Virus record (IMG/VR): IMGVR_UViG_3300025133_000638
Location: 1-22,437 of that record
Reading direction: 5' to 3' (one strand)
Length of the DNA stretch: 22,437 nucleotides
Source of the DNA: a virus
The position numbers and the translations under genes were made by a program. Shown here piece by piece: positions 5,206-22,437 of the stretch (the stretch's first letter is position 1; the number at the start of each line of letters is the position of its first letter). The notes beneath the pieces are model-generated. The model did not search any database. It was not told where the DNA came from and worked only from the letters and a program-made list of their open reading frames with translations.

Positions 5206-5663
5206 AAATAGAAAAACTCTTACAGTTTGTAAAATTGTTCGATAGAGGTAGTATAGCACTGTATGGAGAACATGACCATGTCAAACCTTCAATGTACATG
5301 ATGGTAGGAAGATTCTCAGATAAGGGTACAGCAAATGATAGAGTGACATATACAGTAGAGGATATGAGCCATTTATCAGATGTATGTACTCTTCAGGACA
5401 GTACAGGTGAATCTATTTCAGACGTCCCCTGCAGTGATATATGTAGAACAATAACATATTCCAAGTTGGGAGGTAACTTTCGTAATGCGTTGGAAAATAT
5501 TGATGCTCTACGGAGTACGTTCCACCTTATTGAAAATTATAAGGATGAAATGAAGACATGTCGCATAGTAAGGGATAACAGTAAAGTGGTCGCTTCATTG
5601 ATGTCAGATGATTACGATGTTGCTGATCTCAAAAAGGTCTTAGCTCTTTCTCAATCTCAATGA
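5196..5663 (+). CDS. Unknown protein immediately upstream of DNA polymerase
   Basis: 155 residues starting inside the end of the upstream gene and ending with the ATGA overlap that starts the polymerase. The N-terminal half looks beta-rich ('SMYMMVGRFSDKGTANDRV', 'YTVEDMSHLSDVCTL'), the C-terminal half helical ('RNALENIDALRSTFHLIENY'), with the end reading 'DVADLKKVLALSQSQ'. There are no recognised motifs. The tight coupling to the polymerase gene suggests expression with the replisome and possibly a related role; that is inference only. Confidence 0.7.
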   Translation: MEVEIEKLLQFVKLFDRGSIALYGEHDHVKPSMYMMVGRFSDKGTANDRVTYTVEDMSHLSDVCTLQDSTGESISDVPCSDICRTITYSKLGGNFRNALENIDALRSTFHLIENYKDEMKTCRIVRDNSKVVASLMSDDYDVADLKKVLALSQSQ

Positions 5664-6766
5664 GCACGTGGAACAAGGAGGTAGCTGACATTGAGGTATA
5701 TCCTGATATGTTCTGTTACGTCGGTCACACTTTTGATAGCGATGATACATATGAATTCCTCTTATGTCCTCAGGTAGGGGATATAAAGGAGTTCGTTGTA
5801 CGCATGCTTGATAAAGTGGGAGTGATGGGATACAACGTAAAGGGATATGACGCTCACGTGATAGAGCATATCATAAAGAGGGTACATGACTTTGATAACA
5901 TGAATAATGTTGCAATATGCAATGAGATATTCAAGTTCTCAAAGGATCTGATCCATACGGAGAAGAAACCATGGCTGAAGAAACCAGTGTTACCTTATTT
6001 TGATATCTATAAATTACATCATTTTGATAATAGGAATAAGTCCTGTAGTTTGAAGTGGATAGAGTTTGCTCTACGCATGTCAAACATATCAGACCTTCCC
6101 TACCCTCCTGAAGTGCCCTTAGGTACAAAAGAAAAGATAGATGAGGTAGTGAAGTACTGTCATCATGATGTGAAGGCAACAAAGATGTTCATTGAGGCAT
6201 CTGAGAAAGAGATCGTATTACGACGTGAACTGTCTAAGAAGTATGAGCTCGATCTATATGACGTCAATGAGTCTAAGATGGGAGCTGAGATAGTTCTGAA
6301 GAAGGTGTCTGAAAAGATGAATGTACCTTCTTGGGAAGTACGTAAGATGCGTACCTGGAGACCTGAAGGTATTGTATTGAAAGATATAATACTTCCGTAT
6401 GTGAGTTTCAGAACACAGGAGTTCAATGAGCTGCTTGACAAGTATATGTCAAAGACAGTGAAGGACACCAAAGGTGAACTGAAGCATCGTCAATGGTTCA
6501 AAGGTATTCCGTATGATTACGGGACAGGAGGATTGCATGCATGTACCAAGAGTGGTTCATTCCATGCTGATGATGAGTATGCGATCATAGACATTGATGT
6601 AACGTCATATTACCCGAACATAGCTATACGTAATAAGCAGTATCCAAGACATCTTGGTACATCGTTCTGTTACGTGTATGAAGGTATGTTTGAGGAGCGC
6701 AAATTGCATCCTAAGGGAACGCCTGAAAACTATGTATTAAAGATCGCTTTGAACGGGGTATTTGGT
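5660..6766 (+). CDS. Family B DNA polymerase, exon 1 (3'-5' exonuclease and palm motifs A/B)
   Basis: The first 369 residues of a replicative family B polymerase. Exonuclease motifs are intact: Exo I Asp10-Ile-Glu12, Exo II Asn59 to Asp64 in 'GYNVKGYDAHV', Exo III Tyr166 to Asp170 in 'YCHHD'. The Y-GG/A-like turn 'YGTGGLHA' is at about 287-294. Polymerase motif A is 'DIDVTSYYPNIAI' (311-323, catalytic Asp313). Motif B begins with 'KIALNGVFG' (361-369). The frame then meets TGA at 6767, where a group I intron begins. Splicing to 7878 restores 'NGVFG-KSNEVYSYLYDP', the expected motif B continuation, giving about 649 residues in total. The start is an ATGA overlap with the upstream gene. It copies the phage genome with proofreading. 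Confidence 0.92.
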
Positions 6767-7877
6767 TGAAATAAATTAGTGTTTTATCGCATTTAGTAGT
6801 ATCTTTATAATATGAAGATAAGTACAATTGCGAATGTACACCTGCGAGGTGTATATCGAATAAAGAATATCACTACTGGTAAACAATATATCGGTAGTAC
6901 AGTTATGTCGTTCTTGAAACGACTTCAACATCATCATGCGATGTTAAAGAGTGGTAAACATAAGAACACATATCTACAGAACGCATGGAATAAATACGGA
7001 GAAGATGATTTTATCTTTGAAGTAGTTGAAGTATGTGAAAAGAAGGATTGTTTGTTGAAAGAGCAAATATATCTTGATAATGAAACTGATCTTTACAATA
7101 TAAACCCATTGGCAACAGGAACTCCTGATATGTCAAAGGAAACTATTGAAAAGAGAAGTATCAAAATTAAGGAAACGGCTCAAAAAGTTTCAAAATGGTA
7201 TAATAAGGTTAAAGAAGGTTCAATATCTATTGACGATGTTCCAGAAAAGTATAAAGAGCGCATCCGAATATGGAGTGCTCAAGTACCTTGGAATAAAGGA
7301 AAGAAGTATGAATCTACTGATCATCTTAAAGTACCCAAGAAAACTTCAGATCGAAAGTTATTCTCTACAAATCTCAGAAAGAGATTGCCGATGATAACAG
7401 TTTACCATGAGGGTAAATTATTATCATTGTTTGAGAGTGCTAAAGATCTTGAAGAGTGGAGTCTTACAGAGAGAAATACATTACCTATTAACAGTAGGTT
7501 TTCTAAATCTCGAATGGGACATCCTATAAATTATTTGAAGTCAGCAAATATTAACAAAGCCTGTAGGACAGGTAAACCTTATAAGGGTTTGATATTTAAA
7601 TTCGTGAAATAATAATTTCACAGCCCCTACATGTAGTAATACATGATAGGAATCGGATGAATTCATGGGAAGTCTTAGGTCAGTAATGACAAGATAATCA
7701 TGAGCCAAGCTGAAGCAGGAATGCTACAGAAGGTGCAACGACTAATAGCATACTACCAGAACGGTAATGAAGCTAACACGAGCGTCCGACATCTCATGCG
7801 TTGAGATGATGATATAGTCTGAGCAATATGGAAACATATTGAACTTAAAGTTAAACGCTTTAGGGATAACAAAACTG
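6767..7877 (+). ncRNA. Group I self-splicing intron in the polymerase gene
   Basis: The intron interrupts motif B after GGT (Gly369), with T at the last exon base as group I introns require. The 3' part has core features: 'GAGCCAAGC' near 7702 and GTGCAACGACTA at 7733-7744, the usual P6/P7 sequence. P7 pairs GACTA (7740-7744) with TAGTC (7815-7819). P8 is CATCTCA/TGAGATG (7790-7808). P9 is CAATATG-GAAA-CATATTG (7824-7841), a GNRA-capped stem. I place the terminal G at 7877 (in CTG) because this restores 'FG-KSNEVYSYLYDP' in frame. The 5' guide pairing P1 was not identified, so both ends could shift by a few bases. The endonuclease gene is inside the 5' portion. Confidence 0.88.
6812..7612 (+). 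CDS. GIY-YIG homing endonuclease, intron-encoded
   Basis: 266 residues. The GIY-YIG nuclease domain occupies about residues 12-100: 'GVYRIKN', 'YIGST', the conserved Arg in 'FLKRLQHH', 'LQNAWNKYG' and the catalytic Glu in 'LLKEQIYLD'. The C-terminal part carries DNA-binding modules of the NUMOD type: 'PWNKGKKY' near 152-159, as in NUMOD3, and an end 'ACRTGKPYKGLIFKF' typical of NUMOD1/IENR repeats. Family members cut intronless copies of the host gene so that the intron is copied in. The domain order is complete, so the enzyme may be active. It has its own AT-rich leader (6780-6811) inside the intron and is not translated in frame with the polymerase exon. Its AT-richer sequence fits a mobile origin. 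Confidence 0.9.
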   Translation: MKISTIANVHLRGVYRIKNITTGKQYIGSTVMSFLKRLQHHHAMLKSGKHKNTYLQNAWNKYGEDDFIFEVVEVCEKKDCLLKEQIYLDNETDLYNINPLATGTPDMSKETIEKRSIKIKETAQKVSKWYNKVKEGSISIDDVPEKYKERIRIWSAQVPWNKGKKYESTDHLKVPKKTSDRKLFSTNLRKRLPMITVYHEGKLLSLFESAKDLEEWSLTERNTLPINSRFSKSRMGHPINYLKSANINKACRTGKPYKGLIFKFVK

Positions 7878-8720
7878 AAAAGTAACGAGGTTTATTCGTA
7901 TCTTTATGACCCGAAATTCTTCCTATTCATTACGGTCAATGGTCAGTTATTACTGACAATGTTAGCAGAGGACATCCTGCTCGAAACAGGGGCTGAACTA
8001 CTTCAGGCAAATACGGACGGCATTACGGTGAGGATCTTAAAGACAGAGGTCGATAAGATGAAGGAATGTATGGTCAATTGGGAGAAGTTGACCGATCTAC
8101 AATTAGAAGAAGCAGAGTACAAGAGTATGTTCATACGCGACGTCAACAATTATCTTGCAGTAACAACCGATGATAAGTATAAGTTCAAAGGTGCGTTTGA
8201 GATAGACAAAACGTGGCATAAGGATCATTCGATGAGGATAGTCCCAATTGCTGTAGCACGAGCATGCATACATGGTATTCCTGTTGAACAGACCATTGAA
8301 GATCACATGAATGTTGATGTGTATGATGACATAGGCTGTAAAGCTCATGGTATCTATGACTTCTGCAGTGCAAAGCGTGCTAAAGGAGGAGGGAAGTATA
8401 TGACCGAGACAGCTATTGGAGTGATAGAGGACCTACCTAAGACGGTAAGGTACCATATTGCAAACGATGGAGTGTTCCTGCGTAAGATGCTACCCATGCA
8501 TGTCAATAAGCAAGGTCTTGTTGAGAAGCATAAGGAGAAGTTCCCTAATCAGACAAACATATTTGATCTGATAGATGATGTTAAAGTTGAGCCTGAGCGC
8601 ATATCAACTGTCGAGGTGGGTAATACCGTCGCAGTCATGAATGATGTGTCTGAGGGTCCCTATGATGTCAATCTGGATCATTATGTAAAAGAGTGTAACA
8701 AAATACTTGATAAGCTATGA
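7878..8720 (+). CDS. Family B DNA polymerase, exon 2 (motif C and thumb)
   Basis: 280 residues after splicing. It begins with 'KSNEVYSYLYDPKFFLF', which completes motif B of exon 1, followed by 'ITVNGQLLLTMLAEDIL', a helix strongly conserved in phage family B polymerases. Motif C is 'ANTDGI' (codons 8007-8024; the catalytic Asp is at 8016-8018, Thr-Asp-Gly rather than Thr-Asp-Ser). The rest forms the palm end and thumb. An open frame extends upstream to a TTG at 7839, but those codons lie in intron stem P9 and beyond, so they are not expected in the protein. The last bases overlap the next start (ATGA). Confidence 0.9.
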   Translation, partial: KSNEVYSYLYDPKFFLFITVNGQLLLTMLAEDILLETGAELLQANTDGITVRILKTEVDKMKECMVNWEKLTDLQLEEAEYKSMFIRDVNNYLAVTTDDKYKFKGAFEIDKTWHKDHSMRIVPIAVARACIHGIPVEQTIEDHMNVDVYDDIGCKAHGIYDFCSAKRAKGGGKYMTETAIGVIEDLPKTVRYHIANDGVFLRKMLPMHVNKQGLVEKHKEKFPNQTNIFDLIDDVKVEPERISTVEVGNTVAVMNDVSEGPYDVNLDHYVKECNKILDKL

Positions 8721-14202: not shown

Positions 14203-15144
14203 TTGAACATGCCTGTACACGTAAATCATACTCTGACAGTGGATCGCATTCTGTCCAGAGTGGGAGAAATAGACATCTATCAACGTTACATCGGTAATGT
14301 TGGACTAAGACAGATGATAAATTCCCCGCTCAGACAGGATGATGATACACCTTCTTTCCGTCTTTATGTCGGAAGTGGAGGAAATGTCAGGTTCAAAGAT
14401 TTCGGTACAGGCGTTACAGGTGGAGTTTTCGATCTGGTAAGCCTTCTGTATCCAGGTCTCAACTTTTCAGAAGTACTTGAAAAAGTATGGAATGAAATGA
14501 ATTGTCATGCGCAGGTGGATACTGTGCAGGTGACATATCCTAAAAGAGCAGTGTCCAAACCTGATCTACTCGTTGCGAAACGAAGAGCATCAGTAGAGGA
14601 CATTGCCTATTGGGATGAGAACGGCATTACGAAGGATACCCTCAGTAGGTTCCGTGTATCTCCTATTTCGAGATTTTGGATCGATAGATCTCTTTTCATA
14701 TGTAGAAGTCCTTCTTTTGCATATGATCTGTTGACCGAATGGAAGATATATAGACCTTTTGAAAAGAGGCTCCGATTCATATCAGGAGGTGACACGCTTC
14801 AAGGATACGACCTTCTACCTGAAAAAGGGGAAGTATGCGTAATTCAGAAGAGCTATAAAGATGTCATGCTCCTGCATGAATTCGGAATCCCTTCGTTTGC
14901 ACCGCAGGCAGAATCAGTAGATGTCAAACAGGCGATCATGGACGATGTCCGAGAACGCTTTGAAAAAGTGTACATATGGGGTGATCCTGATTCATCAGGA
15001 GAAGCCTTTATGCAGAGACACGTTGATGAATACGACATTCTACCTGTTGTGAATGATGATGGCACTAAGGATATTACCGATCACTGTAAAGAGTTCGGTA
15101 AAGACAGTGCCAAGAAAATGACCATAAGACTCTTAAAGATATGA
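14203..15144 (+). CDS. DnaG-like primase with a degenerate zinc domain and altered Toprim
   Basis: 313 residues. The N-terminus follows the DnaG CHC2-domain pattern 'SPLRQDDDTPSFRLY' (41-55), then 'NVRFKDFGTGVTGGVFDLV' (61-79), but the zinc-binding Cys/His residues are missing. The Toprim region includes 'VCVIQKSYKDVMLL' (211-224) and 'WGDPDSSGEAFM' (259-270) with the Asp-x-Asp pair. The first Toprim acid, normally Glu, appears to be Gln215, unless Glu210 or Glu238 substitutes. It should make primers for the DnaB-like helicase and family B polymerase, or be a reduced form. Phage primases of this reduced type are known to me only in general. It ends with an ATGA overlap to the nuclease gene. 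Confidence 0.8.
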   Translation: MNMPVHVNHTLTVDRILSRVGEIDIYQRYIGNVGLRQMINSPLRQDDDTPSFRLYVGSGGNVRFKDFGTGVTGGVFDLVSLLYPGLNFSEVLEKVWNEMNCHAQVDTVQVTYPKRAVSKPDLLVAKRRASVEDIAYWDENGITKDTLSRFRVSPISRFWIDRSLFICRSPSFAYDLLTEWKIYRPFEKRLRFISGGDTLQGYDLLPEKGEVCVIQKSYKDVMLLHEFGIPSFAPQAESVDVKQAIMDDVRERFEKVYIWGDPDSSGEAFMQRHVDEYDILPVVNDDGTKDITDHCKEFGKDSAKKMTIRLLKI

Positions 15145-15808: not shown

Positions 15809-16420
15809 ATGACAAGGACAGTATTTGTAAAAGCTGATGGCGTAGCTCGCCCTCATAAATTTGAAGGGTTCTCAGGAGCCACATACGGAGAGTTCAAACA
15901 ATTCGTAAAAGATCAAGGGTCAGACCTGAGTTTTGACGGTAACAAACGTATCGTACTTAAATCTTCAGGAAGTGATCTTGTAGATGATAATGCCAAGATG
16001 TCTGACGTTGATAACGATGTGATCTTCATCATGGTAGATAAGATGGAGAACGGAGCATCATATGATTCTTTGACATATGCGGAGCTTAAGGAACAAGCAC
16101 GTGAGATCGTCCTCAAAGACGGCGATAATGCACGAGCATATTTCGGTTCATATCATATGGTACCACGTTTAGCATTGGTTGCTCTATTGAACGGGTATGT
16201 CAGTGCTGCACCACAGACTGCTGTTGTAGCAGAAACTGTAGAGGATACGGATGAGATGATCAAGTTACGTGCTGCATATGGAGATCTTCTTGCAGCAATG
16301 AATGAGCTCGGTGAAGTTCTCTTGGACAGCACCAGTGAGCAGTTCGGAGGATTCTCTCTTGATGATCTGAATGCAGATTGGGAAGCTCATAATGAAGCTA
16401 CCAAGAAGCGCAGAGGGTAA
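15809..16420 (+). CDS. Ubiquitin-like modifier with a C-terminal Gly and a possible SAP-like middle domain
   Basis: 203 residues. Residues 1-80 follow the beta-grasp order: strand 'TRTVFVKAD', strand 'ARPHKFEG', helix 'TYGEFKQFVKDQ', strand 'RIVLKSSG', turn 'SDLVDDNAKMSD', strand 'VIFIMVDKM'. Residues 86-130 ('SLTYAELKEQAREIV' to 'LALVALLNGY') resemble the helix-extended-helix or SAP type of small DNA-binding domain. The helical rest ends in 'ATKKRRG', a single terminal glycine exposed for adenylation, like the Arg-Gly-Gly tail of ubiquitin. The downstream genes encode E2-, JAB- and E1-like proteins, so this is the expected modifier. Its position matches protein C of PRTRC systems, but it is far longer. 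Target proteins are unknown. The fold is inferred by eye. Confidence 0.72.
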   Translation: MTRTVFVKADGVARPHKFEGFSGATYGEFKQFVKDQGSDLSFDGNKRIVLKSSGSDLVDDNAKMSDVDNDVIFIMVDKMENGASYDSLTYAELKEQAREIVLKDGDNARAYFGSYHMVPRLALVALLNGYVSAAPQTAVVAETVEDTDEMIKLRAAYGDLLAAMNELGEVLLDSTSEQFGGFSLDDLNADWEAHNEATKKRRG

Positions 16421-16432
16421 TTAACACTGATA

Positions 16433-16456
16433 GGGAGGGGTGTAAAAACCTCTCCC
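16433..16456 (+). terminator. GC-rich hairpin between the ubiquitin-like and E2-like genes
   Basis: GGGAGGGG (16433-16440) pairs with CCTCTCCC (16449-16456), eight pairs with one G-U, around an 8-base A-rich loop. It lies 13 bases after the stop of the modifier gene and 19 before the E2-like start. No T-run follows, so it may be a partial terminator or an RNA end-stabiliser that makes the modifier more abundant than its enzymes. The role is inferred. Confidence 0.45.
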
Positions 16457-16475
16457 ATATCATAATAACAAGAAC

Positions 16476-17651
16476 ATGAAAAAAGTGCTCGTAATAGAAG
16501 CAGGTGATGAGACGATGCGTCTGATACAGGATGCGGAAAATCTCAGGACCACCAATTATAATTATAGCAGTGCTCCTCCTGCTGATGCTGAAGAATGTCA
16601 GACGATCGTCAATTATGCGAACAGCGATGAGTTCAGTAAAGAGAGCTTGAAATATGGACCTCTTATGAAGTTCATGGAAAAGATCGTCAAAGCATCCAAT
16701 AGCGTATTAGGAAAGGAGTCATGTGAAATGAGGGTAATGAAGTATAGGTACGAAAATTCATATGCTATTTATGCAACCTTTAAAATGGGAGATATAGAGC
16801 TCAGAAATGATCTTGGCTATAAATTCTTATTGAGAGAAGTATATATTGAGACAGAATTTGCCATGTCAACAACTACAGGAAATTATAAACTCAAAAGTCT
16901 GAGAATGATGCGGACCAGGTATAATACTCTTGAGGCAGCAGCAGGGTTCATGTATTCACATGCCACACGTATTTACGGTGTAGGTGGTAATGCTGTTAAT
17001 ATGCAATGGAGCGGTTGCTGTTTAGGAACATCTTCTCTTTATCAAGAGTTCAGTAAACGTTACAGGACAGTAAGTTTCTTTGATGCGGAACAGTTCATAT
17101 TCATACTTCAGAACTATGTGTCATGGGAAAGCCTCACAGGTGGTCCATATGTTAAGATGGAAGATGTGATCACTAACACAATAGGTGAAAGTGTTAATGT
17201 AAAGAGTAAAAACCATGACATAACAAAAGAGGCTTTAGAGAATTTTACAAAGATCGTAGAGACAGGGTCACTCGAAGCGTCAATAAGTGATTCTGAGATA
17301 TTCATAACGCCTGAGAGTATTGATGAGGCGCTCCTTAATATGAGTACTGCAGCATTCCATAGGAATTTTCAATATGTTCCTGAATGGAGAGAGAATCTTA
17401 AAGTGACGCAGCTTACAGGAGAAAGTGAAAATGGGATAGACTTCAGAGGAAAATCCATGAAAGCTATCACACATCATCCTGATAAGGGAGAATATGATGA
17501 TGTTATCACGCAGATGTTCTGTCATGGTAATCCTGAATGGAAACAAGTATTTATCAAGTACGCCAATGATCTACTTTATGCAAGGCATAATGAACTGATC
17601 ATTACAACAGATAAACCGACAAGAGGTAAATTAACATTAAAGGAAGCATGA
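16476..17651 (+). CDS. E2-like ubiquitin-conjugating protein (PRTRC-B-like)
   Basis: 391 residues. The middle part (about 75-230) follows the layout of divergent prokaryotic E2 folds: beta strands 'ENSYAIYATFKMGDIELR', then 'ATRIYGVGGNAVNMQW' and 'SGCCLGTSSLYQEF' (179-192), where Cys181 or Cys182 occupies the place of the E2 active cysteine ('G-x-C-x-G'), followed by helical 'DAEQFIFILQNYVSWESL'. The histidine in 'YSHATRI' (His162) echoes the E2 'HP' element. The C-terminal 150 residues are unrecognised and helical. It should accept the modifier from the E1-like protein and pass it to a target. It lies between the modifier and JAB genes, overlapping the latter by ATGA. The E2 call rests on a short motif plus context. 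Confidence 0.65.
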   Translation: MKKVLVIEAGDETMRLIQDAENLRTTNYNYSSAPPADAEECQTIVNYANSDEFSKESLKYGPLMKFMEKIVKASNSVLGKESCEMRVMKYRYENSYAIYATFKMGDIELRNDLGYKFLLREVYIETEFAMSTTTGNYKLKSLRMMRTRYNTLEAAAGFMYSHATRIYGVGGNAVNMQWSGCCLGTSSLYQEFSKRYRTVSFFDAEQFIFILQNYVSWESLTGGPYVKMEDVITNTIGESVNVKSKNHDITKEALENFTKIVETGSLEASISDSEIFITPESIDEALLNMSTAAFHRNFQYVPEWRENLKVTQLTGESENGIDFRGKSMKAITHHPDKGEYDDVITQMFCHGNPEWKQVFIKYANDLLYARHNELIITTDKPTRGKLTLKEA

Positions 17652-18814
17652 AAAAAGAAGAAAAGAAAGAATCTACTGAGAAGAAGGTTGAGAAAAGGAT
17701 CTCTCATTCAGTTACCGAACTCGGTAGTAAAGGGAAGCTGATAATCACACGGAAAGTGAAGGCTCAGATCGATCAATTACATAGGATAGTAGGAAATAAG
17801 GAGTGGTGCGGTTTCATACTGTATGAAAAGGTGTCAGGTAATATTACCGATCCTTCAACATATGTAGCTAAGACCACAGGTCTATATCTTATGGACATAG
17901 GCAGCGAAACATATACTGCAAGTGATAATAATCCATTGGATATTGTAGAGATGGATAAAAGAGTACCTGAGTTCATGACAAGCCGTTACGGTCTTGTGCA
18001 TACTCATCACACGATGACAGCATACTTTTCAGGAACTGATATTCAAGAACTGCATACCAATGTAGGTAACTATTCTTATTATCTGTCTCTGATACTGTCA
18101 ATGCGTACTCAATATGTGGCAAAGGTTGTAAAGCTTGTGACATTTCCTGAGAATGCGGTAGAACTGCATGATGAGGATGATAACAGTAAAGGAAAGGTAA
18201 CCTTAAGAGGAATGCAGACGATGATCTCATTCGATCTTGATGTTGAGATAGAAGGTCAGGAAGAAGATCCTATTGTGGATCTACGTGTTAAAGAGCTTCT
18301 TGAGATCAAAAAGAAGGAAAAAGCTCTTAAATTCTCATCAGGATATAAATTTCCATCAGGACATACTTCTGCTCCTGCTCATGGACATGAATTGCCGTCA
18401 TTTTGGTATGATGATACTCCCAGTGGTAAAAAAGGACGTCAGTTGACATTTGATCCACATTTCGGACGTGAAGAAATGCCTACAAGTATTGTGACAAGTC
18501 ATACGGCGCGTGAATCATTGAGACAGATACTGTCTCTCGGTAAGAAGGATCCTAATGAGCTTGGGCAGATATTCGTAGAACTTGCGAGTATGACAAAGCC
18601 TGAACTTGCGACATATCTTACTTCGCTTTCAAAATCGTTCTCTATGAGCGTAGTGACAGATTTCGGAGTTGATAATGCCGCAGAAGCTGTAGAGTACATG
18701 AAGGAGATCCTTTTCGGATTCGGCAGAAATGAAATATTTGAAGAGGTGGTTGATGAGCTATATGATCTCATTGAGTCTGAGGAAGCAGTATTCACAGAGA
18801 TGCTGTCATATTGA
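17648..18814 (+). CDS. JAB/MPN+ metalloprotease (deubiquitinase-like)
   Basis: 388 residues. The JAMM motif is complete: Glu52 in 'NKEWCGFIL', His118 and His120 in 'VHTHHTMTAYFSGTD', Ser128 and Asp131, with the canonical H-x-H-x7-S-x2-D spacing. JAMM enzymes use zinc to cut isopeptide bonds or process ubiquitin-like precursors. Here the modifier already ends in Gly, so removal from targets is the likelier task. The N-terminal 20 residues are Lys/Glu-rich. A charged linker (about 213-235) leads to a 150-residue helical extension with no recognised motif, probably for substrate or partner binding. It starts by ATGA overlap with the E2-like gene and is followed 14 bases later by the E1-like gene. 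Confidence 0.9.
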   Translation: MKKEEKKESTEKKVEKRISHSVTELGSKGKLIITRKVKAQIDQLHRIVGNKEWCGFILYEKVSGNITDPSTYVAKTTGLYLMDIGSETYTASDNNPLDIVEMDKRVPEFMTSRYGLVHTHHTMTAYFSGTDIQELHTNVGNYSYYLSLILSMRTQYVAKVVKLVTFPENAVELHDEDDNSKGKVTLRGMQTMISFDLDVEIEGQEEDPIVDLRVKELLEIKKKEKALKFSSGYKFPSGHTSAPAHGHELPSFWYDDTPSGKKGRQLTFDPHFGREEMPTSIVTSHTARESLRQILSLGKKDPNELGQIFVELASMTKPELATYLTSLSKSFSMSVVTDFGVDNAAEAVEYMKEILFGFGRNEIFEEVVDELYDLIESEEAVFTEMLSY

Positions 18815-18828
18815 TAAAAGAATGATCT

Positions 18829-19515
18829 ATGAGTGAAATAAAAGATTCCCATATCAGGTTCAACAAGGTTGATTGGTATGGAGCAAACAGAGAAATAACT
18901 ATCGGTGGTGTAGGAACCATCGGTAGTTGGCTGACCTTCTTACTCGCAAGAGCAGGAGATCATGAGCTTCTCATGTATGATCCTGATGTTGTTGAAATAG
19001 AAAATCTTGCAGGACAACTGTATAATAAGGAGCATGTAGGCGAAGGAAAAGGAAAAGCAATGAGTAACATGTTGAGAGCCTTTACAGAACATCCTTCTAA
19101 GAAGGTGTTCGTGTTCAAAGAGTTCTTTGATGATACATCCCATGCGCATCCAGTATGCTTTTCATGTTTTGACAATATGAAGGCCCGTAAGGATATGTTC
19201 GAGAGATGGAAGTCAAATTCTAACAGAGAGATATTCATTGACGGGAGAATGACAATTGAGAGTTATGAGGTATATGCTGTAACGCCAGGTAGGGAAAAAG
19301 AGTACGAAAAGACCCTATTTGACAGTAGTGAGATAGAGGAGGAACAGATCTGTTCTCTCAAGAACACTTCTCATACAGGTGCTCTCATAGCAGGTAGAAT
19401 GGTTTCAATATTTACGAATCATCTTACCAATCAAAAACTTGGAATTCCTCTTAGGACAATACCGTTCAAGGTACGTGAGGAAATGCAACTACAACGAATA
19501 GAGATATGCAAATAG
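18829..19515 (+). CDS. ThiF/E1-like adenylating enzyme
   Basis: 228 residues, a single Rossmann-type adenylation domain as in ThiF, MoeB and prokaryotic E1 proteins. The nucleotide loop is 'GGVGTIGSW' (26-34), followed by 'YDPDVVEIENLAGQLY' (50-65), where Asp51, Asn59 and Gln63 correspond to the conserved Asp, Asn and Arg/Gln positions, then Lys74 in 'GEGKGKA' and 'CFDNMKARK' (113-121) with Asp115. Cys175 ('EEQICSLKN') is the best candidate for the thioester cysteine. No CxxC zinc pair is seen. It would activate the C-terminal glycine of the modifier with ATP. It is short, without a ubiquitin-fold domain. Confidence 0.88.
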   Translation: MSEIKDSHIRFNKVDWYGANREITIGGVGTIGSWLTFLLARAGDHELLMYDPDVVEIENLAGQLYNKEHVGEGKGKAMSNMLRAFTEHPSKKVFVFKEFFDDTSHAHPVCFSCFDNMKARKDMFERWKSNSNREIFIDGRMTIESYEVYAVTPGREKEYEKTLFDSSEIEEEQICSLKNTSHTGALIAGRMVSIFTNHLTNQKLGIPLRTIPFKVREEMQLQRIEICK

Positions 19516-19970
19516 AAATAGGTAGAATACTCAGTTCCACTGTTTTAACAACGCCATGTGAGAATACCATAGTAGGAAATTATATATCAGTGTGTGAAGC
19601 ACTCCTTGGAAAACATGAGTATGAAAGTAACCATCTCAGGTATTCTGTAGAGCATGATCTCTCAATAGGTCGTTTTTCGATAGTTACCAAAAAGAAAGGA
19701 ATGGAGATCCGAGAAGCGTTCTTAAAGGCAGCTCTCAATGGTGAAAAAGTCTTTTTAATAGATAATGAACATGTTATAATAGCTACCATCAAAGAAGGAA
19801 TTCCTGTAAAAGGGTATGAAGACATGAAGAATAAGATCAAAGAACTAAATGAAGATCTTAACGATGATATCACAATTAAAATAAAAGAAGATGAGGAACG
19901 ATTACTTCAAGAAGAAAGCCGCTTCGCAGACATTGCTTTCACAGTTACGAGTACACCCACTGCATGCTAA
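19506..19970 (+). CDS. Unknown protein following the E1-like gene
   Basis: 154 residues, overlapping the E1-like gene by 10 bases and the nuclease gene by 80. The N-terminal 65 residues look beta-rich with three cysteines or so ('LTTPCENTIVGNYISVCEAL'). A middle segment 'SIVTKKKGMEIREAFLKAAL' leads to 'KVFLIDNEHVIIATIKEG'. The C-terminal 40 are acidic and helical ('DDITIKIKEDEERLLQEE'). No family is recognised. Its place, coupled directly to the E1-like gene, makes it a candidate extra component, substrate adaptor or target of the conjugation cassette. A second frame covers its last 80 bases, and both seem to be coding. Confidence 0.6.
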   Translation: MQIEIGRILSSTVLTTPCENTIVGNYISVCEALLGKHEYESNHLRYSVEHDLSIGRFSIVTKKKGMEIREAFLKAALNGEKVFLIDNEHVIIATIKEGIPVKGYEDMKNKIKELNEDLNDDITIKIKEDEERLLQEESRFADIAFTVTSTPTAC

Positions 19971-20949: not shown

Positions 20950-21760
20950 GAAAACACCTTTTGTAGGGATAGTATCCCTCAATGGATTCAGTATTCAGAT
21001 AGGTGTCAAAGACACTGATGACATTACTGACGTAGAAACTTTACGACCAGGAATCACGATATCAAAGACTTTGATGCGTGTCGATCATAAGGGAAAGAGG
21101 TTTCTGCATCAGGGAGATCATGTCTACGTACCTGAGAAAGGATGGTATCAGCTTAATGAGCTACAGCTTATTAAGAAGGTCAATGGCGTAAGACTGTATC
21201 GTGGTATTACCATGTATCGGTCTGACACCTCATTGATGGCTCTACCTTTCTTAGGAGGAGACAGGAAGATGTTCGGTTATACTGAGCATATGATGAATGC
21301 CTTCTGTTTCAGGGAAGGAGAGAAAGAAGGTCAGTACCGTATATGGGTACTCATAAGGATAGGGGACAGTACAGGGTATGAACATGCGAATAACGCACTG
21401 ACCTCATCTCCATGTCTGATAAATACAGAAGAGTACGGAGGAGAATTCATTATTCATACCTTTACTATCCCTAATGTATTCAGACCCGACTTTGATCTTT
21501 TTCTGAAGAGTAAGTTCAGTAGAATGTCAGAAGGAGCAAAAGAGAGGATCTATGATTTTCACAAAATACAGGACAGACACAATCGGTTGCGCATGCAGCT
21601 TGAAAGAAGTAAACGTCTTCGTGAGAACATGGAGAAAGAATGGGATCTTGAAGAACCTTTGAGTCCTCAGGTTGAATTGCGGGATCCTCTCTCTATAGAG
21701 CGTGAGACCTTTTACGACCGATATATAATAGATGATGGAAGGAAAAGAAAAAGCACTTAG
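20933..21760 (+). CDS. Unknown phage protein with a C-terminal coiled coil
   Basis: 275 residues. The N-terminal 200 look like a globular alpha/beta domain ('TPFVGIVSLNGFSIQIGV', 'RGITMYRSDTSLMALPFLG'), including 'FRPDFDLFLKSKFSRMSEGA' near 182-201. The C-terminal part is strongly charged and helical ('QDRHNRLRMQLERSKRLREN'), then acidic and basic again at the end. The first bases overlap the nuclease gene by 17, and the end overlaps the glycosylase start by 29. No catalytic motif is known to me. It is embedded among DNA-processing genes. Confidence 0.75.
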   Translation: MTTLYEKTPFVGIVSLNGFSIQIGVKDTDDITDVETLRPGITISKTLMRVDHKGKRFLHQGDHVYVPEKGWYQLNELQLIKKVNGVRLYRGITMYRSDTSLMALPFLGGDRKMFGYTEHMMNAFCFREGEKEGQYRIWVLIRIGDSTGYEHANNALTSSPCLINTEEYGGEFIIHTFTIPNVFRPDFDLFLKSKFSRMSEGAKERIYDFHKIQDRHNRLRMQLERSKRLRENMEKEWDLEEPLSPQVELRDPLSIERETFYDRYIIDDGRKRKST

Positions 21761-22437
21761 AGGCATATTCGGTGACGGATGGTTTGATGCTATGAGACCT
21801 ACTCTGATGTCAGAAGGGTTCGATAAACTCGGACACTTTCTGATGGAGGAGAGGAAGAATAAGGTCATTTATCCAGAACATGAGCATGTGTTCCGTGCAT
21901 TCAAAGAGACTTCATTTGAAACTCTGAAGGTGGTATTCCTCGGGCTTGATCCTTATATCAATAAGGGTCAGGCTCTCGGAAGATCATTCGGAATAGATAT
22001 GAACCAGACGAATGGTAAAATACCACCGTCATTGAGAGTTATACATAAAGAACTTGAGAGCGATCTTGATTGTCTCAGTATCAATTTTGATTACACATTG
22101 GAAGGGTGGGCAAACCAGGGAGTACTGATGTTGAATACAGCTCTCACAGTAGAGCATAAAGCAACAGGTTCACATCTTCATCATTGGGATCCGTTCTTAA
22201 AAGGTGTTATCGATGCTGTAAACGCAAAAGATGACAGGGTGATATTCATCCTATTGGGTAAGAAGGCTCAAGGGTACAGACAATTTCTGAATCCTGATGC
22301 GACATTCACTATTGAAGCACCTCATCCTGCTGCGGAAGCCTATGCAGGCGGTAAAGCAGGGTTCTACGGTAGTAGAATATTCAGTAAATGCAACTCCATG
22401 TTGTATATGCTGACCAAAGAAGAGATCGATTGGAACA
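21732..22437 (+). CDS. ung: Uracil-DNA glycosylase, family 1 (3' partial)
   Basis: The first 235 residues; no stop is reached before the window ends. ATG codons at 21732 and 21735 are both possible, overlapping the upstream gene. Motifs: 'VVFLGLDPYINKGQALG', in which Gln-Asp-Pro-Tyr-His of family 1 appears as Leu-Asp-Pro-Tyr-Ile, keeping the catalytic Asp; 'PPSLRVIHKEL'; 'WANQGVLMLNTALTVE', keeping the uracil-binding Asn; 'SHLHHWDPF'; 'VIFILLGKKAQG'; and the leucine-loop region 'APHPAAEAYAGG' to 'FYGSRIFSKCN', keeping the catalytic His. It removes uracil from DNA during phage replication. The usual length is about 225 residues, so only a short tail is missing. Confidence 0.9.
   Translation, partial: MMEGKEKALRGIFGDGWFDAMRPTLMSEGFDKLGHFLMEERKNKVIYPEHEHVFRAFKETSFETLKVVFLGLDPYINKGQALGRSFGIDMNQTNGKIPPSLRVIHKELESDLDCLSINFDYTLEGWANQGVLMLNTALTVEHKATGSHLHHWDPFLKGVIDAVNAKDDRVIFILLGKKAQGYRQFLNPDATFTIEAPHPAAEAYAGGKAGFYGSRIFSKCNSMLYMLTKEEIDWN

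Follow-up and report, generated by a model that had tools for sequence, protein, structure and literature searches.

A putative ubiquitin-like conjugation cassette shared by crAss-like phages

Introduction

This report concerns four consecutive genes of the IMG/VR record IMGVR_UViG_3300025133_000638, a 22.4 kb virus record (22,437 nucleotides) that was analysed at its full length, is referred to hereafter as the window, and is a fragment without the structural genes. The genes encode, in this order, a ubiquitin-like modifier (Ubl), an E2-like protein, a JAB isopeptidase and an E1-like adenylating enzyme, and together they constitute a real, conserved and probably complete phage Ubl conjugation module. 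Among the explanations considered, such a four-component module, likely serving host takeover or counter-defence, is the best overall, and we think it rather likely to be right. Relatives were gathered in an E1-anchored set of 85 loci (80 from IMG/VR, four phage records and the window) and a JAB-anchored set of 82 loci, which includes two genome contigs and a Xanthomonas phage. Residue conservation was counted in non-redundant alignments (61 sequences each for Ubl, E2-like protein and E1; 58 for JAB), and L-numbers are the labels of the compared loci.

The Four Gene Products

An earlier sequence-only reading had described four consecutive same-strand genes at this site, and four nearly abutting open reading frames (ORFs) are indeed found there in the ORF list of the window, all on the + strand and encoding 203, 391, 388 and 228 amino acids (aa):

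15809-16054, + strand: beta-grasp domain of the Ubl, residues 1-82; the predicted modifier proper, ending at invariant Gly82 (codon 16052-16054)
16055-16420, + strand: C-terminal extension of the Ubl precursor, residues 83-203; helical, with removal by the JAB predicted
16476-17651, + strand: E2-like protein; His162 (codon 16959-16961), candidate catalytic Cys182 (17019-17021), and invariant G184, E218, S219, G222 and P224
17648-18814, + strand: JAB/JAMM isopeptidase; Glu52 (17801-17803), His118 (17999-18001), His120 (18005-18007), Ser128 (18029-18031), Asp131 (18038-18040)
18829-19515, + strand: E1-like adenylating enzyme; glycine-rich loop from Gly27 to Ser33, Asp53, Asn59, Asp115, Arg120 and candidate thioester Cys175 (19351-19353)

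Family searches were of unequal help. The Pfam check suggested along with the sequence-only reading gave a significant match of the E1 product to ThiF (1.9e-16; a single ThiF domain in 228 aa), which bears out the E1-like assignment; the match of the JAB product to Prok-JAB (1.4e-4) fell below the Pfam cut-off, and neither the Ubl nor the E2-like product had a family above cut-off in the Pfam and NCBIfam scans. PHROGs of unknown function match all four products. The claim of a full JAMM motif nonetheless stands, as E52, H118, H120, S128 and D131 are invariant in 58/58 relatives. In the E1, the glycine-rich loop, D53, N59, K74, D115, N116, R120 and C175 are invariant (61/61), Cys175 being the candidate thioester cysteine; by profile, the closest solved structures are UBA5 (2.3e-13), then MccB, PaaA and ThiF. 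The E1 of many Steigviridae-type phages (L002, L004, L061-L080) is longer, at 300-430 aa, with an N-terminal extension that the 228-aa protein of the window lacks.

The beta-grasp modifier foreseen in the sequence-only reading was recovered by structure prediction. An AlphaFold2 model of the Ubl (mean predicted local distance difference test, pLDDT, of 90) places strands 3-9, 16-21, 46-50 and 69-76 around helix 26-35, in the order beta-beta-alpha-beta-beta of a single beta-grasp, the remainder being helical. The top VIA-align rows are DIX, ubiquitin, NEDD8, FAT10 and ISG15, with Z of 6.2-7.5 and root-mean-square deviations of 1.9-3.0 over approximately 72 residues, a Z below 8 being weak if taken alone. 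In several of the ubiquitin and NEDD8 rows, model residue 82 pairs with residue 76 as the last aligned pair, and on this model the modifier is a beta-grasp domain ending at Gly82. Gly82 is also the sole invariant column of the Ubl (61/61, and 81/81 in a fuller set). The C-terminal glycine of the earlier reading was Gly203, which exists and is unconserved; the conserved glycine is Gly82.

The E2-like protein is invariant at H162, C182, G184, E218, S219, G222 and P224 (61/61 each). The G-C-C-L-G motif noted in the sequence-only reading is present, and its second cysteine is C182. In the model, whose pLDDT block means are at least 81 over residues 61-230, helix 58-78 is followed by a four-stranded meander (83-150), then by His162, Cys182 and helices; the criteria given for prokaryotic E2 proteins are an alpha-beta4-His-Cys-alpha order with the active-site residues (Iyer et al., 2006; PMC1779556). 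Fold searches did not reach significance. Foldseek against PDB returned nothing under an E of 0.001, and against BFVD five matches under 0.001, of which the named ones are uncharacterised crAss-like and other phage proteins. VIA Z values were weak throughout: 6.5 for CapZ, 5.6 for FTS, a ubiquitin E2 variant (UEV), 5.5 for the VPS37A UEV, 5.3 for a BRCA1-A subunit, 4.2 for Cap2 residues 7-153 (its E2 part) and 3.5 for Ubc1. By hhalign, no match was found to the one Cap2 compared, and a weak one was found to an E2-like protein of a Xanthomonas jumbo phage (HPHM..SLCLG), aligned at the same motif. Since no match is significant and CapZ ranks above the E2 structures, the assignment rests on topology, the invariance of His and Cys, and context. 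We call the protein E2-like, with a predicted UBC-like topology, and regard it as the weakest point of the interpretation. Against Pfam and PDB profiles, the alignments of the Ubl and the E2-like protein returned nothing informative; one tail matched the Ribosomal_L12 C-terminal domain and one SAP.

As judged from these alignments, the invariant columns of all four proteins are those that a working pathway would need, and this among Ubl and E2 relatives many of which have an overall identity to the window's proteins as low as 8-20%.

Distribution and Linkage of the Cassette

The cassette is not a peculiarity of one phage, as it had first seemed, and is common to many crAss-like phages, including cultured gut phages of Bacteroides, and to Flavobacterium phages. 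In tblastn searches, the E1 matched phages of Flavobacterium psychrophilum (41%) and crAss-like Steigviridae of Bacteroides (32-36%), most of the genes hit being labelled "thiamine biosynthesis protein." The genes of crAss001 run from primase (gp80) through gp79, gp78, gp77 ("metalloprotease"), gp76 (ThiF) and gp75 to uracil-DNA glycosylase (UDG), and alignments identify gp79, gp78 and gp77 as counterparts of the window's Ubl, E2-like protein and JAB. The four-gene run recurs in Fpv3, DAC15 and cr111_1. A survey of related phages for co-occurrence, which had been set beforehand as a refuting test, came out in favour of the sequence-only reading and found E2, JAB and E1 together in 84/85 E1-anchored loci and the Ubl as well in 81/85, with order and strand constant. 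The JAB-anchored set was complete in 72/82 loci, every incomplete IMG/VR locus being cut by a contig end.

In the E1-anchored loci, the Ubl gene adjoins the E2 gene almost without exception, the E2 and JAB genes usually overlap, and the JAB and E1 genes abut, the latter two arrangements being the pattern expected of co-translated partners. Primase lies 3' of an intact cassette in four loci, which argues that the cassette moves as a block. Moreover, presence is all-or-none among the crAss-like relatives compared: within the Steigviridae, crAss001 has all four genes, while no E2, JAB, E1 or beta-grasp was found in cr116_1, cr108_1 or phi14:2.

The window itself very likely comes from a crAss-like phage, since 15 of the 16 long IMG/VR relatives tested carry both the major capsid protein (MCP) and the large terminase subunit (TerL) of crAss phages; in one of them (L037), MCP and TerL are 43% and 40% identical to those of crAss001. 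A GTDB scan yielded only two contigs of metagenome-assembled genomes and no cellular source of the cassette, and these are read as phage contigs because one (L085) has all four genes together with UDG.

Several relatives show further features of the lineage. Group I introns break the JAB genes of L005 (7711-8164), L062 (7133-7345) and L070 (6555-6814) and the E2 gene of L066 (5225-5456), and similar interruptions occur in L014, L073 and L067 without an Rfam match; the conserved cassette genes are thus intron targets. The window's own DNA polymerase gene (5660-6769 and 7839-8720) is interrupted by a group I intron (Rfam RF00028, 7568-7841), with a GIY-YIG-like ORF at 6812-7612 in the split region. 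The TerL frame of L068 (G016) contains 21 TAG and stays open only with readthrough of them, which likely marks a recoded crAss-like phage; this relative keeps the cassette.

An Exchangeable Slot Between Primase and UDG

The placement of a full cassette among phage replication genes, as claimed in the sequence-only reading, is confirmed in the window and in relatives, where primase on one side and UDG and exonuclease genes on the other flank it. The neighbouring features of the window are:

14203-15144, + strand: DNA primase, left border of the slot; phrog_12622 (5.9e-32), kept in 81/85 loci
19506-19970, + strand: gene directly after E1; a short lineage-specific form, where most relatives have a fast-evolving companion family
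21732-22436, + strand: UDG, right border marker of the slot; cut by the window end, clustering with the annotated UDG of crAss001, cr111_1 and Fpv3

Most loci have a gene immediately following E1 (e.g., L004 9711-10523; L001 9663-10751). Its fast-evolving products fall into two main clusters, of 38 and 19 members, linked by hhalign at a probability of 91% and showing no catalytic-looking invariant residues; the short gene of the window's group has no detectable kinship with either. The family is a candidate adaptor or target.

What lies between primase and UDG differs among close relatives. In cr116_1, rIIA/rIIB replace the cassette, whereas by annotation and Pfam the slot of cr108_1 and phi14:2 holds a set of ATP-grasp, COOH-NH2 ligase, glutamine amidotransferase and amidoligase genes. 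The genes rIIA and rIIB are the anti-exclusion genes of phage T4. A primase-anchored census, independent of the cassette and comprising 50 loci with at least 6.5 kb downstream, found 24 complete Ubl cassettes, 18 rII loci, 6 amidoligase loci and 2 others, with no doubles; under independence, the chance of zero overlap between Ubl and rII is 9e-8, a figure that ignores kinship among loci. The E1- and JAB-anchored loci yielded neither rII nor amidoligase genes. On the primase tree, the three slot types need 8 switches by parsimony, against a shuffled mean of 26, and a Ubl pair is nested inside an rII clade on starred branches. A Ubl locus (L223) and an rII locus (L208) share most flanking replication genes at 53-91% identity (76% for primase), with unrelated slot contents. 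In L244 (11464-17418) and L232, none of the three modules was recognised; L244 may have diverged rII-like genes in the slot.

The comparison of slot types also bears on the Ubl tail. Of the 61 non-redundant relatives, 12 encode a bare Ubl that stops 1-5 residues past the glycine, typically as KVKSGK, and the others have tails of 21-217 residues. Trimming would always be needed, since no relative's Ubl (0/61) ends exactly at Gly. The 17 census loci flagged "UBL only" match just the tail part, and all carry rII genes. The small protein of cr116_1 matches only model positions 84-128 of the Ubl profile, and in the rII-type IMG/VR phages with a match, the match starts at model position 83 or 84, the glycine being at approximately position 81. 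The fusion joint appears to lie at the glycine, because the free-standing tail homologue of rII-type phages begins just past it. By sequence, the gut crAss-like type has a long Ubl in which the beta-grasp domain is fused at Gly to a protein that is free-standing in sister phages. As a fifth of relatives encode a bare Ubl and rII-type phages have the post-Gly part as a separate protein, the long Ubl is probably a fusion precursor, which the JAB would cut after Gly82.

From these observations we propose, as an idea about evenly poised between right and wrong, that crAss-like phages keep an exchangeable takeover slot from primase to UDG holding one of three unrelated modules (Ubl conjugation, rIIA/rIIB or an amide-ligase cassette), and that the Ubl module is a virus-borne tagging pathway in which the modifier starts out joined to a phage protein resident in the slot and is then released from it, much as eukaryotic ubiquitin is made fused to ribosomal proteins.

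Comparison with Known Systems

The sequence-only reading had likened the cassette to the PRTRC systems, a likeness that holds for gene order and fails for the proteins. On plasmids, PRTRC (operon type 6d) comprises a Ubl ("C"), a helical protein ("F"), an E2 ("B"), a JAB ("A") and a ThiF protein (Iyer et al., 2006; PMC1779556). As there, the Ubl gene lies 5' of those for E2, JAB and a small ThiF-type E1, the E1 cysteine stands at the corresponding place (PSCS in PRTRC, CSxKxTS with Cys175 here), and the E2 cysteine lies in C-x-G. Unlike plasmid PRTRC loci, which show both, the phage cassette has neither an F-like gene between Ubl and E2 nor a ParB-related gene, and its Ubl appears as a precursor with a tail. 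Furthermore, His162 precedes Cys182 in 61/61 relatives and no His is among the invariant columns after it, whereas the type 6d E2 has an invariant His after the cysteine and none before (PMC1779556). PRTRC membership was rejected, the E1 scoring 22.1 bits with the NCBIfam model PRTRC_ThiF (cut-off 144.75 bits) and no other PRTRC model matching window proteins, as was kinship of the E2s with PRTRC B, at a profile-comparison probability of 1% from five PRTRC sequences only.

The anti-phage operon BilABCD likewise comprises Ubl, E2, JAB and E1, with a JAB that uncovers the glycine of the modifier. BilA contains a pair of Ub domains, in BilB the cysteine is followed by a CEHH motif, and BilD combines an inactive and an active adenylation domain with a Cys domain (PMC11354881). 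The cassette differs in its one beta-grasp, its His before Cys, its 228-aa E1 with a single ThiF domain and its being borne by a phage, and Bil membership was rejected on architecture, as tandem Ub domains and a double adenylation plus Cys domain are lacking. Type II of the cyclic-oligonucleotide-based anti-phage signalling system (CBASS) offers, in Cap2 and Cap3, an E1-E2 relay and a JAB peptidase, and the E1 matches PADLOC E1-E2 models and Cap2 structures; Cap2 is, however, an E1-E2 fusion acting on a CD-NTase, where the phage has separate ORFs and a dedicated Ubl. Since E1 and E2 are separate and no CD-NTase hit came from the window proteins that were scanned for families, type II CBASS membership was likewise rejected.

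Eukaryotic UFM1 is likewise a single-Gly modifier, synthesised in precursor form with a short cap, and is served by a small E1. UBA5 of the UFM1/UBA5/UFSP system is, as noted, the best solved-structure match of the E1; the cassette departs from that system in having a JAB in place of a cysteine protease and no recognised E3, with sequence kinship limited to the ThiF domain. In lambda-type tail proteins TAPI and TAPK, a phage Ubl likewise carries an extra C-terminal domain and a JAB is predicted to cut at Gly (PMC1779556), but these form a tail module with neither E1 nor E2. A second phage Ubl set, different in detail, occurs between the DNA ligase and topoisomerase genes of Xanthomonas jumbo phage PhiXhv-12 (L166, 2730-6606): a 140-aa protein ending KASGG, an 892-aa protein that combines the E2-like motif HPHM..SLCLG with a RING-like tail rich in Cys, and after it ThiF, with no JAB of the window's family found there. 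No published description of a crAss-like phage Ubl cassette was found in the open literature, subscription papers lying outside the search, so that a prior mention is possible; the main texts of Yutin 2021 and Shkoporov 2018 do not mention the cassette terms.

Proposed Mechanism and Alternatives

In the proposed mechanism, the Ubl would be made as a precursor of beta-grasp, Gly82 and extension. The JAB would cut after Gly82, exposing the glycine and freeing the extension; the E1 would adenylate the glycine carboxylate and then hold the Ubl as a thioester on Cys175; and Cys182 of the E2-like protein, with His162 nearby, would receive the Ubl for transfer to target amines. The JAB may later strip the tag from targets. 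Processing, thioester relay and conjugation of this kind we consider quite probable, whereas a role in host takeover or counter-defence is about as likely to be correct as not. The sequence-only reading had offered both replication proteins and the host as targets. That the cassette lies in a replication operon is not enough to make replication proteins its targets, since rIIA/rIIB and amidoligase modules take its place in other phages; the host or its defences are the likelier target, because the flanking replisome genes persist when the module is swapped for rIIA/rIIB or amide-bond-forming enzymes.

Several points weigh against this interpretation. No E3 is recognised and no target is known; the beta-grasp tail ends in a single Gly (mostly SG) and not GG; the E2-like protein lacks a significant sequence or Foldseek match to any known E2, with CapZ outranking the UEV/E2 structures in the VIA list. 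The loci share descent, so that co-occurrence counts are not independent, and the slot alternatives are called rII and amidoligase from record annotation and weak to moderate hidden Markov model scores, their roles in these phages being putative.

Conjugation of the Ubl to the phage's own replication and repair proteins (primase, helicase, exonuclease, UDG), as a control of the replisome comparable to that exerted through PCNA by ubiquitin and SUMO, would fit the position of the cassette, which in the window and its relatives has primase on one side and exonuclease/UDG genes on the other. It is nevertheless unlikely, as close relatives swap the whole cassette and keep the replication genes on both sides, which indicates that the replisome works without it. 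A greater doubt attaches to the possibility that the second protein is an adaptor or structural partner, with the E1 transferring the Ubl directly or via another carrier. The lack of a significant fold match and the UEV/E2 Z values of 3.5-5.6, under that of CapZ, speak for this; the alpha-beta4-His-Cys-alpha order with invariant His162, Cys182 and Gly184, in line with Iyer et al. (2006; PMC1779556), and the weak alignment of the jumbo-phage protein at the same spot speak for an E2. It is a little less probable still that the set is a decoy or antagonist mimicking CBASS- or Bil-type Ubl pathways, with the JAB stripping host conjugates and Ubl, E1 and E2 acting as sponges: those defences share the chemistry (PMC11354881) and the slot is shared with rII, anti-exclusion genes in T4, but none of the four active sites is degraded in the non-redundant relatives, and a decoy would not need every catalytic residue. 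Finally, a sulfur-carrier system, with a ThiS/MoaD-like Ubl adenylated by the E1 for thiocarboxylation and yielding a thiolated nucleotide, tRNA or cofactor, is improbable despite the ThiF family of the E1 and the ThiF-JAB-Ubl sets that transfer sulfur elsewhere (Iyer et al., 2006; PMC1779556), given the strict linkage of an E2-like protein whose Cys and His are invariant, the single Gly in place of GG, the fusion of the Ubl domain to an unrelated protein, and the finding that the neighbouring proteins scanned hit neither a rhodanese nor a sulfur-transfer family.

Significance

Complete bacterial Ubl pathways have been known so far as plasmid genes and anti-phage defences; here, a phage lineage carries the set. 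That lineage is abundant in the gut and the environment, and its cassette has been annotated as thiamine biosynthesis and hypothetical genes. The most surprising parts are the exchangeable slot and the fusion joint at Gly, the latter a clean model of Ubl precursor processing. Exchange with rIIA/rIIB offers a handle on the long-standing question of what rII and the phage amidoligase cassettes do. Because carriers can be cultivated (crAss001, DAC15 and the F. psychrophilum phages), experiments can directly address conjugation, its targets and what the module is for. Since close relatives have rIIA/rIIB or amidoligase genes in the slot that the cassette occupies, our analysis suggests protein tagging as a means by which some phages take over their hosts.

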